From Ancylobacter crimeensis (GTDB lineage Bacteria; Pseudomonadota; Alphaproteobacteria; Rhizobiales; Xanthobacteraceae), in assembly GCF_023016805.1 (NCBI RefSeq), contig NZ_JALKCH010000007.1, positions 224,232 through 288,231 of the forward strand: DNA of 64,000 bases, read 5' to 3'. Positions within the stretch are counted from its first letter, which is position 1. Each line of letters starts with the position of its first letter. Shown in pieces: positions 8,140 through 64,000 of the stretch. Both the position numbers and the translations under genes were made by a program. Below the pieces are notes generated by a model. It saw only the letters and a list, made by a program, of their open reading frames with translations. It made no database searches and was not told the DNA's origin.

Positions 8140-10032
8140 TCATTCCGCATCCCACCATGTCTCCGCGAGCGTGCCGGAGAGAGAAGGCGTCTGTGGCCGG
8201 GCAACCTTTGTCCAGCGTGCAAGCCATTGATCCGGCGTGTGGAACAGGGGAACCGAGAATTGCGCCGAGATGAGCACGCGGTCCAAAGCCCGGACGGCGG
8301 CAATAAAATCCTCTCTCTCGCGCGCCGCGAGCAGAGCGCGGATCATCGCGTCGGCAGCCGCGTTCCGAAGGCCCATGAAGTTCCGCGTGCCCGGTTGATC
8401 GGCCGCCTCCGAGCCGAAATAGAAGGCCTGCTCATTACCGGGCGACAGCGACTGATCCCAGATATAGGGCACGATGTCGTAGTCGTAGTTCTGCTTGCGC
8501 GTCTCGAACTGCACGTTGTCGACGAGCCGGATGACGAGATCGATGCCGGCGCGTTTCACCATGCGCTGATAGGCGAGAGCGAGCCGTTCCTGATCCTTGG
8601 TGCCGACGACAAGTTCCGGGCGAAGCAGTGCGCCATCCCTCTTGTCGATCATCACGCCGTCGACGAGATGCCAGCCCGCGGCATCGAGCAGGCCGAGCGC
8701 GGTGCGCAGCCTCTCCCGGTCCCGGCCCGATCCATCGGATACCGGCGGCTGCCAGGTGCCCTCCATCACAGGGGGCAGCACGGCGTCGGGGAACGGTGCA
8801 AGCAAGGCGCGCTCGGTTTCGCTGGCCGAACGGTTACGGGCGGAGAGTTCGGAATTCTCATAGAAGCTGGCCGTGCGGGTATAGACGCCGAAATAGAGCT
8901 GCTGATTGATCCATTCGAAGTCGAACAGCTCGACCATCGCCCGGCGCACGCGATTGTCCGCGAAAACCGGACGGCGCATGTTGAAGACGAGCGCGGAGTA
9001 GGGTGCCGGCGTCTGCGTGCCCACATCCTCCAGCACGATCCGCCCATCTCGCCGGGCGGGAATGTCGTAACCCGTCTTCCATCGACCCGGGTCCGTTTCG
9101 AACCGGATATCGTAGAGCCCGCGCTTGAAGGCTTCGAACAAGCCATTGACGTCGCGATAGAAATCGTAGCGCAGGGTGTCGAAGTTATAGAGCCCGCGAT
9201 TCACCGCTAAATCGCGCCCCCAATAATCCGGGGCGCGCCTGAGCACGACGCTTTCCCCCGGCTTCACCTCGCCGCACACATAGGGGCCGCTGCCGAGGGG
9301 AGCCGTGAAGCTGGTGTTCTCGAAGCTGTTCCAATCGGTCGCATGCTTCGACAGAACCGGCATCAGCGCGAGGATCAGAGGCAGTTCGCGATCCTCCTGT
9401 GCCAGCGTGAAACGAATGCCATGCGGACCGATCTGCTCGGCGCGGGCAACCTTTCCGTAATAGGAGCGGTGATTAGGCCGCCCCCTGGCGCGCAGAAGCT
9501 CGTAGGAGAAGAGCACGTCCTCGGGGCTTACCGGCGTGCCGTCGGAAAAGCGCGCGGCGGGGTCGAGCTGGAAGGTCACATGGCTGCGGGCATCGTCGGT
9601 CTCGATCGAGCGTGCAAGCAGGCCGTAGACGGTGAAGGCCTCATCCGGCGAGCGCGCCATCAGGCTCTCGACGATGTTCCAGCGGATGAAGGGTGGCGGC
9701 GTTCCGCGCACGATGAAGGGATTGAGGCTGTCGAAGGTGCCGACCGCCCCCTGCACCAGCCGCCCGCGCCGCGGCGCATCCGGGTTGACGCTTCGATAAT
9801 GGCTGAAACCGGCCTCGTAGAGGGGCATGCCGTGCATCGCCAGACCGTGCATCGGGCCGCCAGCGGACGCTGCGGCAGGAATCCCTTCATCGCTGTCCGG
9901 GGTGGCGGCCGAGGCCCTTGCGACGAGGGGTCTCATCCCGGATACCCCTGCCGCAGCGATCCCGGCGCACAGGATATGCCGCCGTGTGATATCCACCTTT
10001 GCGCATCTCCGTCTCGGATCCGGCCCGGTCAC
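8140..10032 (-). CDS. Family 5 extracellular solute-binding protein (oligopeptide/YejA-like)
   Basis: This large periplasmic binding protein (630 residues) resembles the peptide-binding proteins of YejA/DppA type. It contains DTPRRGRLVQGAVGTFDSLNPF-like sequence near residue 85 and the family pattern FSDGTPVSPEDVLFSYELL near 165. The N terminus ITRRHILCAGIAAAG looks like a twin-arginine signal. A GTG at 9996, preceded by a GGAG ribosome site, is a credible alternative start that begins just before this signal. No permease or ATPase genes adjoin it, so it is an orphan binding protein that may serve a transporter elsewhere. A small secreted protein gene follows. Confidence 0.85.
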   Translation of the reverse strand: MTGPDPRRRCAKVDITRRHILCAGIAAAGVSGMRPLVARASAATPDSDEGIPAAASAGGPMHGLAMHGMPLYEAGFSHYRSVNPDAPRRGRLVQGAVGTFDSLNPFIVRGTPPPFIRWNIVESLMARSPDEAFTVYGLLARSIETDDARSHVTFQLDPAARFSDGTPVSPEDVLFSYELLRARGRPNHRSYYGKVARAEQIGPHGIRFTLAQEDRELPLILALMPVLSKHATDWNSFENTSFTAPLGSGPYVCGEVKPGESVVLRRAPDYWGRDLAVNRGLYNFDTLRYDFYRDVNGLFEAFKRGLYDIRFETDPGRWKTGYDIPARRDGRIVLEDVGTQTPAPYSALVFNMRRPVFADNRVRRAMVELFDFEWINQQLYFGVYTRTASFYENSELSARNRSASETERALLAPFPDAVLPPVMEGTWQPPVSDGSGRDRERLRTALGLLDAAGWHLVDGVMIDKRDGALLRPELVVGTKDQERLALAYQRMVKRAGIDLVIRLVDNVQFETRKQNYDYDIVPYIWDQSLSPGNEQAFYFGSEAADQPGTRNFMGLRNAAADAMIRALLAAREREDFIAAVRALDRVLISAQFSVPLFHTPDQWLARWTKVARPQTPSLSGTLAETWWDAE

Positions 10033-59364: not shown

Positions 59365-59439
59365 GCGCCCTTCGTCTATCGGTTAGGACGCCACCCTTTC
59401 ACGGTGGAGAGAGGGGTTCGACTCCCCTAGGGCGCGCCA
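59365..59439 (+). tRNA. tRNA-Glu (anticodon UUC)
   Basis: GCGCCCT pairs with AGGGCGC, followed by discriminator G and encoded CCA. The anticodon loop CTTTCAC has TTC at 59398-59400, and the T arm is GGGGTTCGACTCCCC. It marks the edge between core genes (kdp) and mobile DNA, because phage-like and IS-like sequences begin soon after its 3' end. The 3' end of tRNA genes is a common integration site. Confidence 0.97.
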
Positions 59440-59604
59440 GCCATTGTTCGCTTCTGTATGTCATTGATTTAATTGACCAATCAGTGACAGAAAAATGAAC
59501 ATGGACCCCAATTGAACCCCAGCTTTGGACCCCAGCCTGGTTAGGCTGAGCCTGCGCAGGGTCGTCGGATGGGACAGGGCTTTCATTCCACCGATCCATT
59601 TTCC

Positions 59605-59662
59605 AGCCTGTTGTGCGCGCTAGTAATGTACCTCAGCGAAACGCAGGTCCCCACAACAGGGT
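59605..59662 (+). repeat. 58-bp repeat, left copy (inverted relative to the right copy)
   Basis: This sequence is the reverse complement of 61392-61449, 57 of 58 bases matching (the mismatch is at 59646). Each copy is itself bounded by 9-base inverted ends CCTGTTGTG (59607-59615) and CACAACAGG (59652-59660). The repeat begins 165 bases after tRNA-Glu and stops two bases before the stop codon of an amber-interrupted ORF that reads toward it. Its class is unknown to me. Confidence 0.9.
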
Positions 59663-59663
59663 C

Positions 59664-60302
59664 TCAAATGACACCCTTCGGGCCGGTGATCCGACCTTCC
59701 ATGTCCATCTCCCCCACGCATCGCCTCTCTCTGAGCTGCTTCTCACGGATACCCTGATACCGGCTCACGAGTTGCTGGCTGACCTCCAGAACGGCCGCCA
59801 TGTCCTCCTGATCGAGACACGGGAAGTGGTCGCACGGCCAGCATACGGCCTCCTGAACCGGCATATCCTCCCGCCCACGGGACACCTGAAACGCCTTCAG
59901 GGCCGCTCCAGCCACCGCAACGGGTGGTCTTTCCGTTCGCCTGTCGAGCCCTTTCAGTGCCGACGACCACCGTTCACGAAGCCATCCCTGCCCTTCCGGG
60001 CTGATGACATCGAAGGGACGGGCTCCCCTCTTACTCGGCTCGATCCGTCTGCCGAGGCCCTACCGGATGGCCCAAGGCGATATGCGGTGGCGCTGATAGG
60101 TTCCGCCACCCTCAACGCCGACAAAGTCCAGCTCACGCAACACCGTGCGGACCTTGCGAGGGCCAACACCCATGGCCGCCCCGAACTCCGTCACCGTGAT
60201 CCAGTTCCCCTTGTCGAGGGTGACCGTCTCTCCGGTGCGGCGGTCGAGGATTTCTTCCGTGTAGATCAAGGCGTGTGTCTCCGTTCCCGGTGCGATTGGC
60301 AC
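59664..60302 (-). pseudogene. Interrupted phage-type DNA-binding-like ORF (in-frame amber)
   Basis: One frame reads from ATG at 60302 to TGA at 59664, about 212 codons, broken by a single TAG at 60060-60062. The first part (80 residues) contains WITVTEFGAAMGVGPRKVRTVLRELDF, which looks like a helix-turn-helix of a phage or plasmid regulator. The second part (about 131 residues) continues smoothly: GLGRRIEPSKRGARPFDVISPEGQ, then DMAAVLEVSQQLVSRYQGIREKQ. A CAG-to-TAG mutation would give this. It may be inactive or yield only the N-terminal piece. I do not know the family. Confidence 0.6.
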
Positions 60303-60505
60303 AAGGCGGGTCTAGGCGGCGTGCAAGGGGCCGCGTTGAATGACGGTGAAGTGCCCCGAGCGATGGCTCCAAGGGCGGATTGGGTGGGATTTCAGGGGAT
60401 CTAAAGGGGATAGATTCCTGACATCCCCTCAAGCGAACATACGAGGATGTTCTTCAAACGTTCTAGTTGCCGTGGGAGCCCCCTGCCGACCCCCTGAGGC
60501 CCGCC

Positions 60506-60862
60506 TCAATCCTCATCCCAAGGATAGCCCTCGGGCGGCTTCGGCAGGCCGTAGGTGAGCGTCCGCTCCGTGACGGCGCGGGAGCTGGTCGGCATGATGG
60601 AAGCCGCTTCAATGGCACCCTCAATGGACGCAACAGGCCCCTGCGTTTCAGCCTTCGCCTTCCCCTTGGTCTGCACCCCGTTCTCCATGAGGTTGACCAT
60701 CCATGGCCCGAACGCCTTCACCTTCTTGGCGGCGGCATTGGCCACGACCTCATCAAGGCCGGCACGGGTGAGGAAGGTTGCCTTCTCGAAGGCGGGAACA
60801 GCCCTGCCATCGCTGGCGTCGAAGTCTTCGCGCTGGAGGAGGACACGGTTGCCATCGCTCAT
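60506..60862 (-). CDS. Hypothetical protein in the mobile region
   Basis: The 118-residue frame from the ATG at 60862 (MSDGNRVLLQREDFDASDG...) is mostly hydrophilic, with a Lys/Ala-rich middle (LDEVVANAAAKKVKAFGPWM) and an acidic C-terminal tail PPEGYPWDED. The frame remains open upstream to a GTG at 60937, but those residues look non-coding. A TTGACG with an AT-rich spacer lies upstream at 61003-61031 and could promote it. I do not recognise a family, and no clear ribosome site precedes the start, so this is tentative. Confidence 0.45.
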   Translation of the reverse strand: MSDGNRVLLQREDFDASDGRAVPAFEKATFLTRAGLDEVVANAAAKKVKAFGPWMVNLMENGVQTKGKAKAETQGPVASIEGAIEAASIMPTSSRAVTERTLTYGLPKPPEGYPWDED

Positions 60863-61002
60863 CCGCGACCACCAGATGCCCGCGATGGAACAGGGTTTCC
60901 AGCTCGGCCACCCGCCCGAGCCATTCCGTGCGCCCACCGGGGGGTGCGCGCCGCTTCCTTCAATTCAGACACGCCGGCATATTTTTTCCATAAATATCCG
61001 TT

Positions 61003-61031
61003 ACTTAATAAGGTATCTTAAAGTGCGTCAA
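61003..61031 (-). promoter_or_regulatory. Possible promoter for the leftward hypothetical gene
   Basis: On the minus strand TTGACG (61026-61031) is followed by an AT-rich 17-base spacer and a weak TTAAGT -10 (61003-61008). The surrounding 60 bases are far more AT-rich than the rest of the window. Confidence 0.3.
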
Positions 61032-61116
61032 ACGACACCCTTGCGGAAGCCTCACGCCCACCCTTGAGCCGCTCCCGGCGAGACCCTAGCCTCCCACCAT
61101 TCAACCCCACCAAGGC

Positions 61117-61344
61117 ATGGAGGCCCGCTTGGAAGGCGAAGACTTGGCGAGGCTGCTGTGCCGGCTGGAGGCGGGCATGAGCCTTACCGTGCCGGATCAA
61201 TGGCTGGAAGAGGTGTTTCCCGGTTCCCGCCTCATGCGCATGCAGCGAGTGAACGAGATGGCCGGACGCTACCATTGCCTCTGCCATGACGGCCTCGGGG
61301 CCCAGACATTCGAGAAGCCGGCCCATCCGTGGCGGACATGCTGA
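61117..61344 (+). CDS. Small hypothetical protein in the mobile region
   Basis: A 75-residue frame with a mixed acidic/basic composition (MEARLEGEDLARLLCRLEAGMSL, VPDQWLEEVFPGSRLMRMQR) and no membrane segment. It reads rightward and ends 47 bases before the right copy of the 58-bp repeat, so both ORFs flanking the repeats point toward them. No family is recognised and the ribosome site is weak. Confidence 0.4.
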   Translation: MEARLEGEDLARLLCRLEAGMSLTVPDQWLEEVFPGSRLMRMQRVNEMAGRYHCLCHDGLGAQTFEKPAHPWRTC

Positions 61345-61391
61345 GGCTCTGGCGGGAGGGGCCGATTGTCGGGGTGAAGGCGTCTATGGTC

Positions 61392-61449
61392 ACCCTGTTG
61401 TGGGGACGTGCGTTTCGCTGAGGTACATTACTAGCGCGCACAACAGGCT
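61392..61449 (-). repeat. 58-bp repeat, right copy
   Basis: Inverted partner of 59605-59662, one mismatch. It carries the same 9-base inverted ends, CCTGTTGTG (61394-61402) and CACAACAGG (61439-61447). Weaker similarity seems to continue for some 30 bases on the inner side and about 10 on the outer side. Confidence 0.9.
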
Positions 61450-61477
61450 AGAAATGAACTGCCATCCTCAAAGATCA

Positions 61478-61602: not shown

Positions 61603-61920
61603 TTAGGCGACCTTGCGCGCGTCTCGGGACACCTCTCGAAGCATGCCCATGATTTCAGAAGGATGAGTCTGGATCAGAAGAAGGAAGGCCCGCACCGCTC
61701 CAAGCGGACGGGAGCGGCCCTGCTCCCACTGCCGGATTTGGTGGACGGTGAAACCGAACATCGTGGCAAAACCATCCTGCGACATGCCAAGGCCCGTGCG
61801 GATGGCACGAACGTCCATCTCAGCCGGCACGAAGAGCTTTGCGTGCTCCGCTTCGCCACGGGCAATGGCGGTAGCCTCAGCAAGTCCTTCTGCAATCTTG
61901 TCAAACGCCTTCGTGCTCAT
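61603..61920 (-). CDS. HigA/NadS-type antitoxin with XRE helix-turn-helix
   Basis: The 105-residue protein has an N-terminal segment (residues 1-30, KAFDKIAEGLAEATAIARGE) and an XRE domain: VRAIRTGLGMSQDGFATMFGFTVHQIRQWEQGRSRP, where the recognition helix follows MSQDGFA. It would bind the toxin and autorepress the operon. The ATG at 61920 overlaps the toxin stop in an ATGA junction, so toxin precedes antitoxin as in HigBA modules. Confidence 0.88.
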   Translation of the reverse strand: MSTKAFDKIAEGLAEATAIARGEAEHAKLFVPAEMDVRAIRTGLGMSQDGFATMFGFTVHQIRQWEQGRSRPLGAVRAFLLLIQTHPSEIMGMLREVSRDARKVA

Positions 61921-62279
61921 GACCGTGCTCCAACATCCACAACTCGATCCGTATAGGCTTCGAGTAGCCTTTTTGTCATTGTTGCCAACGCGTTACGTTC
62001 CGCCTTGGATAGGTTGACCTTTTCCCCCTTGGAGAAGGCAGCAAGTAGGAAGGCCGGAATCTCCGTCCCCGAATAGAAGGTGATGGTTCGATAACCTCCG
62101 CTCTTCCCCTTACCCCTGCCTGCCCATCGCAACTTGCGGCACCCTCCAGTGCCCGCTATGGGGTCGCCGGCATCTGGATTGTTGGCAAGGAAATTTACGA
62201 GGTCTTCCACCTCGTCCTCGGTCATCCCGGCCTCGTTCGCCTGCCGGATGAAAGCTGCCGTCTGCGATACGCAATGCAT
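61917..62279 (-). CDS. RelE/HigB-type toxin
   Basis: The 120-residue toxin belongs to the COG4737 RelE-like group: TAAFIRQANEAGMTEDEVEDLVNFLANNPDAGDPI, GTGGCRKLRWAGRGKGKSGGYRTITFY and KAERNALATMTKRLLEAY are the family landmarks. Such toxins usually cut mRNA at the ribosome. The ATG at 62279 is at the expected family start. There is no Shine-Dalgarno sequence before it, and the predicted transcription start falls on or very near the ATG, so the mRNA may be leaderless. Confidence 0.88.
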   Translation of the reverse strand: MHCVSQTAAFIRQANEAGMTEDEVEDLVNFLANNPDAGDPIAGTGGCRKLRWAGRGKGKSGGYRTITFYSGTEIPAFLLAAFSKGEKVNLSKAERNALATMTKRLLEAYTDRVVDVGARS

Positions 62280-62489: not shown

Positions 62490-63020
62490 TCAGTGCGCTC
62501 CCTGAGACTTTGGCGCGAACTCCGGGCGGCCCTGCGACATCAGCCCGAGGAGGTACAGCACCGGCAACGTGTTCTGCCAGATGATCGGCCGGACGATGGC
62601 CTTCACCTCGGCCTTGGACATCTGCCGGTTCTCCACCCACGGCCGGGCGATGGCGCTGATGGCCTCCCGCGTGTCGTCGAGAAGGCCCGTTGTCGGGTTC
62701 GCGAAGATGTCCGTGGGCTGGCTCGTGGTGCGGCTGTTGAAGCCCCGGATGCCGAACGGCATCAGGGAGGTGTCCACCAGCATCGGGATAAGGCCCGACA
62801 TGCCGGTGCGCTGGAAGGCCCCAAGGGCGATGCTCTTGACCGAAAGGCGGTCCTCAAGCTGCTTCTCGGACAGGCTCGGGGACACCGCGAGGGTCTGCGC
62901 AATGTGGCCCATCATGCCGCCCATATAGGTCGCCAGGAAGGTCGTGAGGCTCTCCCGGTCCCACATATGGAGCTGGTGGAGCATCTGCTTGGAATGCGCC
63001 CCTGCCACGAAGACGCGGAA
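62490..63020 (-). pseudogene. Phage virion-protein remnant, 5' end replaced by an IS3 element
   Basis: The open frame reads ...QFRVFVAGAHSKQMLHQLHMWDRESLTTFLATYMGG to PKSQGAH* and lacks an N terminus, since an IS3-type sequence begins at about 63022. The remaining 175 or so residues are moderately hydrophobic with Gly/Met-rich stretches (MGGMMGHIAQTLA). They have the look of the C-terminal part of a large podovirus internal or ejection protein, but I could not identify the family. The gene is inactivated by the insertion or is a truncated remnant. Confidence 0.5.
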
Positions 63021-63106
63021 CTGAGAGCTGGCTCGGGAAATTTGGACAGGTCGGATAAGTGGAGTTTCTGCCTGAAGGCGGCATGATGGCCGCGACAGGA
63101 GAGACC

Positions 63107-63403
63107 ATGGCGAAACGACCGCGGCGGAACCATACGCCGGCCTTCAAGGCGAAGGTGGCCCTTGCAGCCGTGCGGGGCGAGAAGGCGATCGTCGAGCTGG
63201 CGCAGCAGTTCGATGTGCATCCGAACCAGATCACGCAATGGCGCAATCAGCTCCTCGATGGGGCAGCGGGCGTGTTCGACGGCGAGGCGAAGGCCGCAGC
63301 GCCGGTTCCGACGGTCGACGTGAAGACGCTGCATGCGAAGATCGGGGAGCTGACGCTGGAGAATGATTTTTGTCCGGCGCGCTCGAGAAGGCCGGCCTTC
63401 TGA
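63107..63403 (+). CDS. IS3 OrfA, helix-turn-helix DNA-binding protein, frameshifted at its 3' end
   Basis: The 98-residue frame starts at ATG 63107 (GGAGA upstream): KRPRRNHTPAFKAKVALAAVRGEKAIVELAQQFDVHPNQITQWRNQLLDGAAGVF is the IS3 OrfA helix-turn-helix. In related copies I know, the C terminus reads ENDFLSGALEKAGLLSAKR and stops over the OrfB start. Here the T-run 63367-63371 is five long, shifting the frame so it ends ENDFCPARSRRPAF. Reading one base back restores the expected frame and the stop at 63415-63417. So this is a one-base deletion or a slippage-dependent form. Confidence 0.75.
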   Translation: MAKRPRRNHTPAFKAKVALAAVRGEKAIVELAQQFDVHPNQITQWRNQLLDGAAGVFDGEAKAAAPVPTVDVKTLHAKIGELTLENDFCPARSRRPAF

Positions 63404-63413
63404 GCGCAAAGCG

Positions 63414-64000
63414 ATGATCGACCGCCATCATGACCTGCCGCTCAACCGGCAGGCGAAGGTTCTGGGGATCAGTCGAGGCAGTGTTTACTATCTGCCTCGC
63501 TCGGTTCCGGCTGCCGATCTGGCCCTGATGCGCCGGATCGACGCCCTGCACCTGGAATATCCCTTCGCCGGCAGCCGCATGTTGCAGGGCCTTCTCAATG
63601 CCGAGGGTCATGTCGCAGGGCGCCTGCACGTCGCCACGCTGATGAAGCGCATGGGGGTCGAGGCGCTTTATCGCAGGCCGAGGACCTCGAAACGGATGCC
63701 GGGGCACGCGATCTTCCCCTACCTGCTGCGTAAGCTGCCGGTGACGCGTCCCAATCAGGTCTGGGCGATGGACATTACCTACATCCCGATGGCGCGGGGC
63801 TGCGTCTACCTCGCAGCTGTCGTCGACTGGTTCAGCCGCAAGGTTCTGGCCTCGCGGCTCTCGATCACGATGGACACCGCCTTCTGTATCGAGGCGGTCG
63901 AGGACGCCATGGCCCGCTTCGGCAAGCCGGATATCTTCAATACCGACCAGGGCTCGCAGTTCACCAGCCGCGAGTTCACCGGCCTGCTGATCGCAGCCGA
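63414..64000 (+). CDS. IS3 OrfB transposase (DDE domain), 3' incomplete
   Basis: From ATG 63414 the frame is open to the window edge, about 195 residues. The HTH_21-type region (RRIDALHLEYPFAGSRMLQGLL) precedes the rve integrase core. VWAMDITYIPMARGCVYLAAVVDW has the first catalytic Asp and IFNTDQGSQFTSREF the second; the Glu lies beyond the window. The start overlaps the expected OrfA stop as ATGA, which favours coupling or frameshift fusion into OrfAB. Confidence 0.85.
   Translation, partial: MIDRHHDLPLNRQAKVLGISRGSVYYLPRSVPAADLALMRRIDALHLEYPFAGSRMLQGLLNAEGHVAGRLHVATLMKRMGVEALYRRPRTSKRMPGHAIFPYLLRKLPVTRPNQVWAMDITYIPMARGCVYLAAVVDWFSRKVLASRLSITMDTAFCIEAVEDAMARFGKPDIFNTDQGSQFTSREFTGLLIAA

Follow-up and report, generated by a model that had tools for sequence, protein, structure and literature searches.

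In satellites and prophages variable cargo occupies fixed hotspots; how it lands there precisely is a standing question. In lambdoid-type boundary sequences, short conserved tracts join exchangeable modules. Among the closest described systems, and going by the parts of these papers drawn on here, P4-like satellites have a hotspot for defence genes that lies between psu and int (PMC9122126), PICMI are minimalist satellites of virulent phages (PMC10803314), and LUZ100 and Pasto are temperate T7-like phages (PMC10134795). Here we report on a short repeat in a 64,000-nucleotide stretch of Ancylobacter crimeensis DNA (hereafter the window); found again at two slots within a single island family, it is a testable candidate for such a joint. 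A preliminary description of this DNA had drawn attention to the repeat; its observation is right, its interpretation was partly supported, and what emerges on a larger scale is a set of T7-phage-linked islands with cargo slots edged by the element.

An inverted repeat pair beside a tRNA gene

The match first described, 57 of 58 bases between 59605-59662 and the reverse complement of 61392-61449, was confirmed on re-reading the sequence. An independent repeat search returned arms of 76 nt (59600-59675 and 61379-61454) that are 89% complementary, the second-best inverted pair within the same 10 kb being 32 nt at 75%; the pair is far beyond chance. Its 58-bp part differs at one base, five flanking bases bring the match to 61 of 63, and similarity between the left copy (L) and the right copy (R) continues, more weakly, past the 58-mer edges. 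The suggested search of the 58-mer against its own 4.3-Mb genome found these two places only. The features of the locus are as follows (window positions; G numbers denote other genomes of the genus).

59365..59439, forward strand: tRNA-Glu gene, the island attachment gene (ARAGORN, Rfam tRNA; the G008 island begins with a tRNA-Glu 3' fragment)
59596..59662, forward strand: L, a putative seam element, outer arm CCATTTTCC plus 58-mer 59605-59662 (8-copy alignment)
59607..59615, forward strand: left inverted end of L, CCTGTTGTG, pairing 9/9 with 59652-59660
59652..59660, forward strand: right inverted end of L, CACAACAGG, pairing 9/9 with 59607-59615
59721..60269, reverse strand: island core gene, predicted winged-helix protein (G019 relative 192 aa)
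60506..60937, reverse strand: island core gene, relative of a 151-aa protein of G014, G017 and G019 (47-64% identity, 76-118 aa)
61392..61449, reverse strand: R, a putative seam element (58-mer), inverted relative to L (aligned with R of G001, G014, G017 and G019)
61603..61920, reverse strand: HTH antitoxin-like gene, putative R-seam cargo (phrog_2104, MqsA-antitoxin-like and HTH_3, below or near the cut-off)
61917..62279, reverse strand: RelE toxin-like gene, putative R-seam cargo (PF06296 RelE, 41 bits, above the cut-off)
62490..63008, reverse strand: C-terminal fragment of a T7-type internal virion protein (phrog_342, E 4e-11)
63059..64000, forward strand: IS3-type transposase genes breaking the virion-protein gene (HTH_Tnp_1 and rve domains; the contig ends inside)

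Homology of the window L to its counterparts in G019 and G002 starts at base 59596, and the outer arm of the window R extends to 61457. The 9-bp inverted ends CCTGTTGTG/CACAACAGG are present as described but are not terminal, lying 2 bp inside the 58-mer. The outward-reading open reading frames (ORFs) said to adjoin both copies were partly borne out: on the L side stands an island gene with an internal stop, and on the R side a 75-aa ORF with no family match.

The 1.7 kb between the copies had been taken for mobile DNA; the locus is not a 1.7-kb mobile element, and the segment consists of conserved island genes. The same genes, common to other islands, together with the low copy number (two in the genome) and the lack of a target duplication or any direct repeat at the element's edges, led us to reject the suggestion of a small non-autonomous mobile element. 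A transposon with terminal inverted repeats, or a MITE, was discarded on the absence of direct repeats at the outer edges, the two copies per genome and the fixed positions of the element in islands.

The island in the window is itself reduced. No integrase ORF lies in the 156 bp from tRNA-Glu to L, and the winged-helix gene, 74% identical to its G019 relative over residues 1-183, has one in-frame TAG. The virion-protein fragment is 54-66% identical to island proteins of G019, G001 and G017; residues 520-1074 of this protein lie on the end of another contig (C11:490656-492322), and residues 1-519 were not found. The window contig and C11 may adjoin through the insertion sequence. Neither the window nor its genome contains a T7-like promoter motif. 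From the sequence we infer that the window island is a decayed, dead remnant.

Copies of the element and the islands that carry them

Nine copies were found in seven of the 30 genomes of the genus, namely L and R in the window and in G019, L in G002 and G008, and R in G001, G014 and G017. A degenerate pattern allowing up to three mismatches found copies in six of these genomes. The seventh, in G008, was found beside the winged-helix gene and had been missed by that pattern, so further diverged copies may exist. Among 101 relatives, partial matches came from three, the window's own genome and two others of the genus. Family-wide and order-wide searches yielded no credible copy outside the genus: six family genomes matched the degenerate pattern at three mismatches, with the reversed control matching once in 391, and are regarded as chance, while the order-wide search returned the window's genome only (1/397) from a sample that contained just two genomes of the genus. 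Three IMG/VR matches have unrelated flanks. Membership of a described repeat family was likewise not found, the element being absent from Rfam (no match at E up to 1), from 50,697 phage records (nothing convincing, one 23-bp match at E 6) and from 72,556 plasmid records. Between 58500 and 64000 only the tRNA reached the Rfam threshold, and a known structured RNA was rejected.

Across the eight aligned copies about 20 columns are invariant, and the conserved portion is the middle of the element (TGTTG, GTAAT, ACCTC), not the stem. Integron attC sites end in RYYYAAC ... GTTRRRY and have a variable middle. An attC site was rejected here since the element ends, GTTGTG ... CACAAC, stand in the opposite order and its middle is the conserved portion. 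At the end of island operons the element might instead serve host or helper polymerase as a signal for transcript ending or RNA processing, the adjacent cargo differences being incidental. It does lie directly past gene stops, those of DUF2293 in G014 and G019 and that of a cargo gene in G008, and the ends of some copies can pair. However, folding of seven copies as RNA, a check that had been proposed, gave no common structure and no consistent advantage over shuffles (z -2.01 to 0.23); no T run follows the element, Rfam returned nothing, and conservation sits in the middle rather than the stem. We consider this reading unlikely.

A second possibility is that the element is the tail of a short reading frame, conserved by protein constraint. 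The one difference between the window copies is indeed the synonymous Thr codon change (ACC/ACG) earlier cited as a hint of past coding, yet it is a single base. The antisense frame named at that time is open over 15 codons in all nine copies, but its nonsynonymous/synonymous ratio (0.64; ratios computed on eight of the nine copies in six frames) is not the lowest. A different frame has the lowest ratio, 0.53, which speaks for coding of some kind; that frame, however, has a stop in G008, three frames give close ratios (0.53, 0.64, 0.65), and the copies share neither a start codon nor a length. Frame openness and ratios leave coding by the element undecided, although with all these observations taken together we find a conserved reading frame extremely improbable. 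Of the three guesses in the preliminary description, a phage intergenic repeat came nearest, since a phage-linked island family carries the element as a conserved block that looks non-coding.

The carriers are islands at tRNA genes, 8.5-18.3 kb long where both attachment repeats were found.

G019 island, 18.3 kb: attachment repeat of 17 bp
G002 island, 8.5 kb: attachment repeat of 17 bp
G017 island, 17.7 kb: attachment repeat of 22 bp
G014 island, 11.0 kb: attachment repeat of 26 bp

The attachment repeat overlaps an ARAGORN-called tRNA in G019, G002 and G014; ARAGORN called no tRNA at that of G017. Other GC-rich repeats of 13-15 bp in three of the four islands are regarded as chance, and the G001 and G008 islands run into contig ends. 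Tyrosine integrases are encoded in the G017, G019 and G008 islands. Site-specific integration with an own integrase and attachment repeats, a satellite trait, is thus seen in the islands, though not in the window, where no integrase ORF lies between tRNA and L. The G008 island (L141:12367-14837) shows, by eye, a 3' end fragment of tRNA-Glu, followed by an integrase, a 349-aa protein in the L slot and then L.

The islands share a gene order: integrase, L, a winged-helix gene (or a gene of 454-467 aa instead) and the 151-aa gene, followed usually by a serine recombinase, R, DUF2293, the T7-type internal virion protein, small genes and a Rha-type regulator. Protein families detected were integrase, resolvase, DUF2293, Rha/Bro-N and DUF3102, and genes near the element encode regulators or HTH proteins. 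Ten proteins of the G017 and G019 islands were scanned; none matched capsid, portal, large terminase or RNA polymerase families, and one gave a weak small-terminase match (E 7e-4). In G019 a serine-threonine kinase like the PD-T4-6 and mads_6 defence kinases lies between the virion protein and DUF2293 (L120:14628-15665, reverse strand). Upstream of the serine recombinase we saw, by eye, an imperfect palindrome, ATACC...GGTAT with two central bases (L004 about 1885-1935; L099 about 2225-2265), which may be the recombinase's own site.

L belongs to the integrase-side module, and R stands after the DUF2293 gene or, in the window, after the RelE/HTH pair. The winged-helix gene occurs in 4 of the 101 genomes, with an L copy adjoining it in all four. 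R follows DUF2293 in each of the four genus genomes having that gene; distant DUF2293 matches in three other genomes have no element nearby. The inverted L/R pair recurs in a second island, that of G019, with the inner genes oriented as in the window. L is absent from G014 and G017, whose integrases differ, and the inverted pair is thus not essential.

Relation to T7-like phages

A T7-like RNA polymerase family was present in one of the 30 genus genomes, G015, within a prophage that also encodes a terminase large subunit, head-tail adaptor, portal, DNA polymerase, primase-helicase, tail protein and integrase. The islands and this prophage have in common motifs of the type CTAACCCCCCACTATCGC and CTAACACCCCACTATAGGA. 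The pattern CTAAYNCCYCACTATMG had 14 matches in the 30 genomes (G017 4, G019 2, G001 1, G014 1, G015 6) and its reversal none, so that eight lie in islands and six in the sole prophage with a T7-like RNA polymerase. As the pattern was derived from the same genomes in which it was counted, the weight lies in its absence elsewhere and not in the matches. Two more motifs of G019 fall outside the pattern, G002 and G008 have none, and IMG/VR scans with two promoter forms gave no match. A second shared feature is a cis block (ATCTGAA, GCGA, CCCCCC), downstream of the terminase gene in G015 and of the virion-protein gene in four islands. Under stricter scanning it turned up in G015, G001, G014 and G017, with no match in G019, G002, G008 or the window. 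By position only, this block is a candidate packaging signal.

G017: T7-like promoter motifs at L090; cis block L090:12364-12500
G014: T7-like promoter motif at L126; cis block L126:1308-1445
G019: T7-like promoter motifs at L120/L121; cis block L120:14230-14370, reverse strand
G001: T7-like promoter motif at L093; cis block L093:17652-17790
G015: T7-like promoter motifs at L132/L133/L135; cis block L135:8000-8110, reverse strand

The virion protein of the G015 prophage is 62% identical to that of G001, 59% to that of G017 and 56% to that of G019, and a T7-type SSB gene of the G014 island (L125:16127-16855) matches one of the prophage (L133:1947-2669, reverse strand) over 603 bp at 85.6% identity. 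The islands of this family are likely to be satellites of T7-like phages, and a T7-like helper would then supply the RNA polymerase that expresses them. Island promoters matching the polymerase of a T7-like prophage would extend satellites to T7-like helpers, the trigger being the helper polymerase itself. No report of a satellite of a T7-like phage was among the titles listed in our literature search, which is not proof of none in print. This link, a by-product of the analysis, may outweigh the seam in importance.

The element itself is not a piece of the helper phage, a candidate we rejected: neither the pattern nor a scan allowing five changes located a copy in the G015 prophage, the many rows of the scan being interpreted as chance matches. 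A hairpin CCCCCTGTTGG...CCAACAGGGGG does occur in the prophage (L135 about 9030-9063, reverse strand), where a CTATAGGA promoter and the terminase gene immediately precede it. Its ends share seven bases, CCTGTTG/CAACAGG, with the window ends; it lacks the core and for that reason was not counted as a copy.

This absence also bears on whether the element is a site for a DNA-binding protein, such as a repressor or replication factor of island, helper or host, doubled to control both flanks of a regulatory segment. Some 20 invariant columns over eight copies, one or two copies per island and the regulators or HTH proteins encoded nearby would all suit such a site. Yet R is present in the G014 and G017 islands, which have neither the winged-helix gene nor L, and the prophage has no copy. 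A doubled protein site seems to us rather improbable.

Putative cargo seams and comparison with known systems

In nine pairwise island comparisons by BLAST, four showed an isolated element block between dissimilar DNA: G019 and the window (63 bp), G001 and G014 (53), G017 and G001 (48), and G019 and G017 (42). In G019 and G002 an integrase block of 91.6% identity gives way to dissimilar cargo, after which homology, at 93.4%, returns within one base of the L edge. BLAST gave no element block in the other four comparisons (G019/G008, G008/window, G017/G014, G019/G014). The L-slot genes differ: G002 has a DUF7945 protein there, and G008 and G019 have a 349-aa protein and an ORF, respectively, both without family; the G019 ORF points opposite to the other two. 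On the outer side of R stands DUF2293 in four islands and RelE/HTH in the window, and the inner side spans about 1.85 kb in G017 versus about 0.25 kb in G001. L and R look like conserved seams of cargo slots, as far as sequence comparison can tell.

The window copies are mosaic. Over a 32-column core the window L matches the window R at 32/32 and R of G001 at 31/32, versus 23/32 for L of G019 and 22/32 for L of G002. Its outer arm, in contrast, matches L of G019 at 11/13 and L of G002 at 12/13, versus 6/13 for R of G001, so that the window L joins a core of R type to an outer arm of L type; the arm also resembles R of G017 (10/13), which weakens this part of the argument. The inverted ends pair at 9, 9, 8 and 7 of 9 positions in the L copies of the window, G019, G002 and G008, and the window R has inverted ends otherwise found only in L copies. 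The other four R copies lack them, with at best 5, 5, 5 and 6 of 9 pairs, and a random best pairing reaches at least 5 of 9 with probability 0.60 and at least 6 of 9 with probability 0.16. L and R of G019 have stayed different (36/59). The simplest reading is that the window L and R exchanged sequence by two-way conversion, and the mosaic copies suggest recombination of some kind.

Such an exchange also speaks for a rival, an elaboration of the inversion proposed earlier, in which the copies are inverted sites where a serine or tyrosine recombinase flips the 1.7-kb segment. The pair is inverted, and near R the islands of G001, G014 and G017 carry serine recombinase genes, that of G019 one of another type. 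However, we rejected a DNA-inversion switch because the inner genes have the same orientation in the window and in G019, the two islands with both copies; moreover, no recombinase gene accompanies the window pair, and G014 and G017 have a serine recombinase yet a single copy. Inversion is very unlikely.

We give about an even chance to the reading that the repeats are L and R seam elements of a tRNA-island family, likely satellites of T7-like phages, and likely act as tracts for cargo exchange. Short tracts common to the islands would let neighbouring variable cargo genes pass from island to island, and recombination inside the element, homologous or by some recombinase, could have generated the observed patterns; that cargo exchange runs through the seam is what we infer from these sequences. 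In a bolder form, which is possible but doubtful, the islands stay silent until a helper supplies the single-subunit RNA polymerase that reads their captured phage promoters, and a dedicated DNA docking site, inverted at two slots, serves to swap cargo. Neutral short homology would not call for a sequence this constant, so the conservation may reflect a different role, as a protein site or transcript end; both keep some probability because recombination leaves about 20 invariant columns unexplained.

Set beside the P4-like satellites, in the same parts of the source (PMC9122126), our islands are alike in being small, integrated and helper-linked, with a few kb of variable cargo between conserved genes next to the integrase; the G019 island even has a PD-T4-6-like kinase, although DUF2293 lies between it and the seam. 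They differ in their T7-like helper signature and in slots marked by a short conserved DNA element, of which those parts make no mention. As in PICMI (PMC10803314, again in the parts used), genes are few, integration is site-specific, and no capsid genes were recognised among the scanned island proteins. PICMI, however, have alpA and a primase as core genes and lie downstream of fis, whereas our islands lie at tRNA genes and are for this reason not classed as PICMI, and they contain a phage virion protein and helper-type promoters. The G015 prophage has the same gene set as LUZ100 and Pasto, judging from what we used of PMC10134795, and the islands' promoter motif bears a partial resemblance to the T7 consensus given there; Pasto was also among the matches in this analysis. 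Unlike these phages, the islands lack an RNA polymerase and, among the proteins scanned, recognisable capsid, portal and large terminase genes, and keep one internal virion protein. Finally, the element differs from lambdoid boundary sequences in that one sequence stands at two different joints of the same island, inverted.
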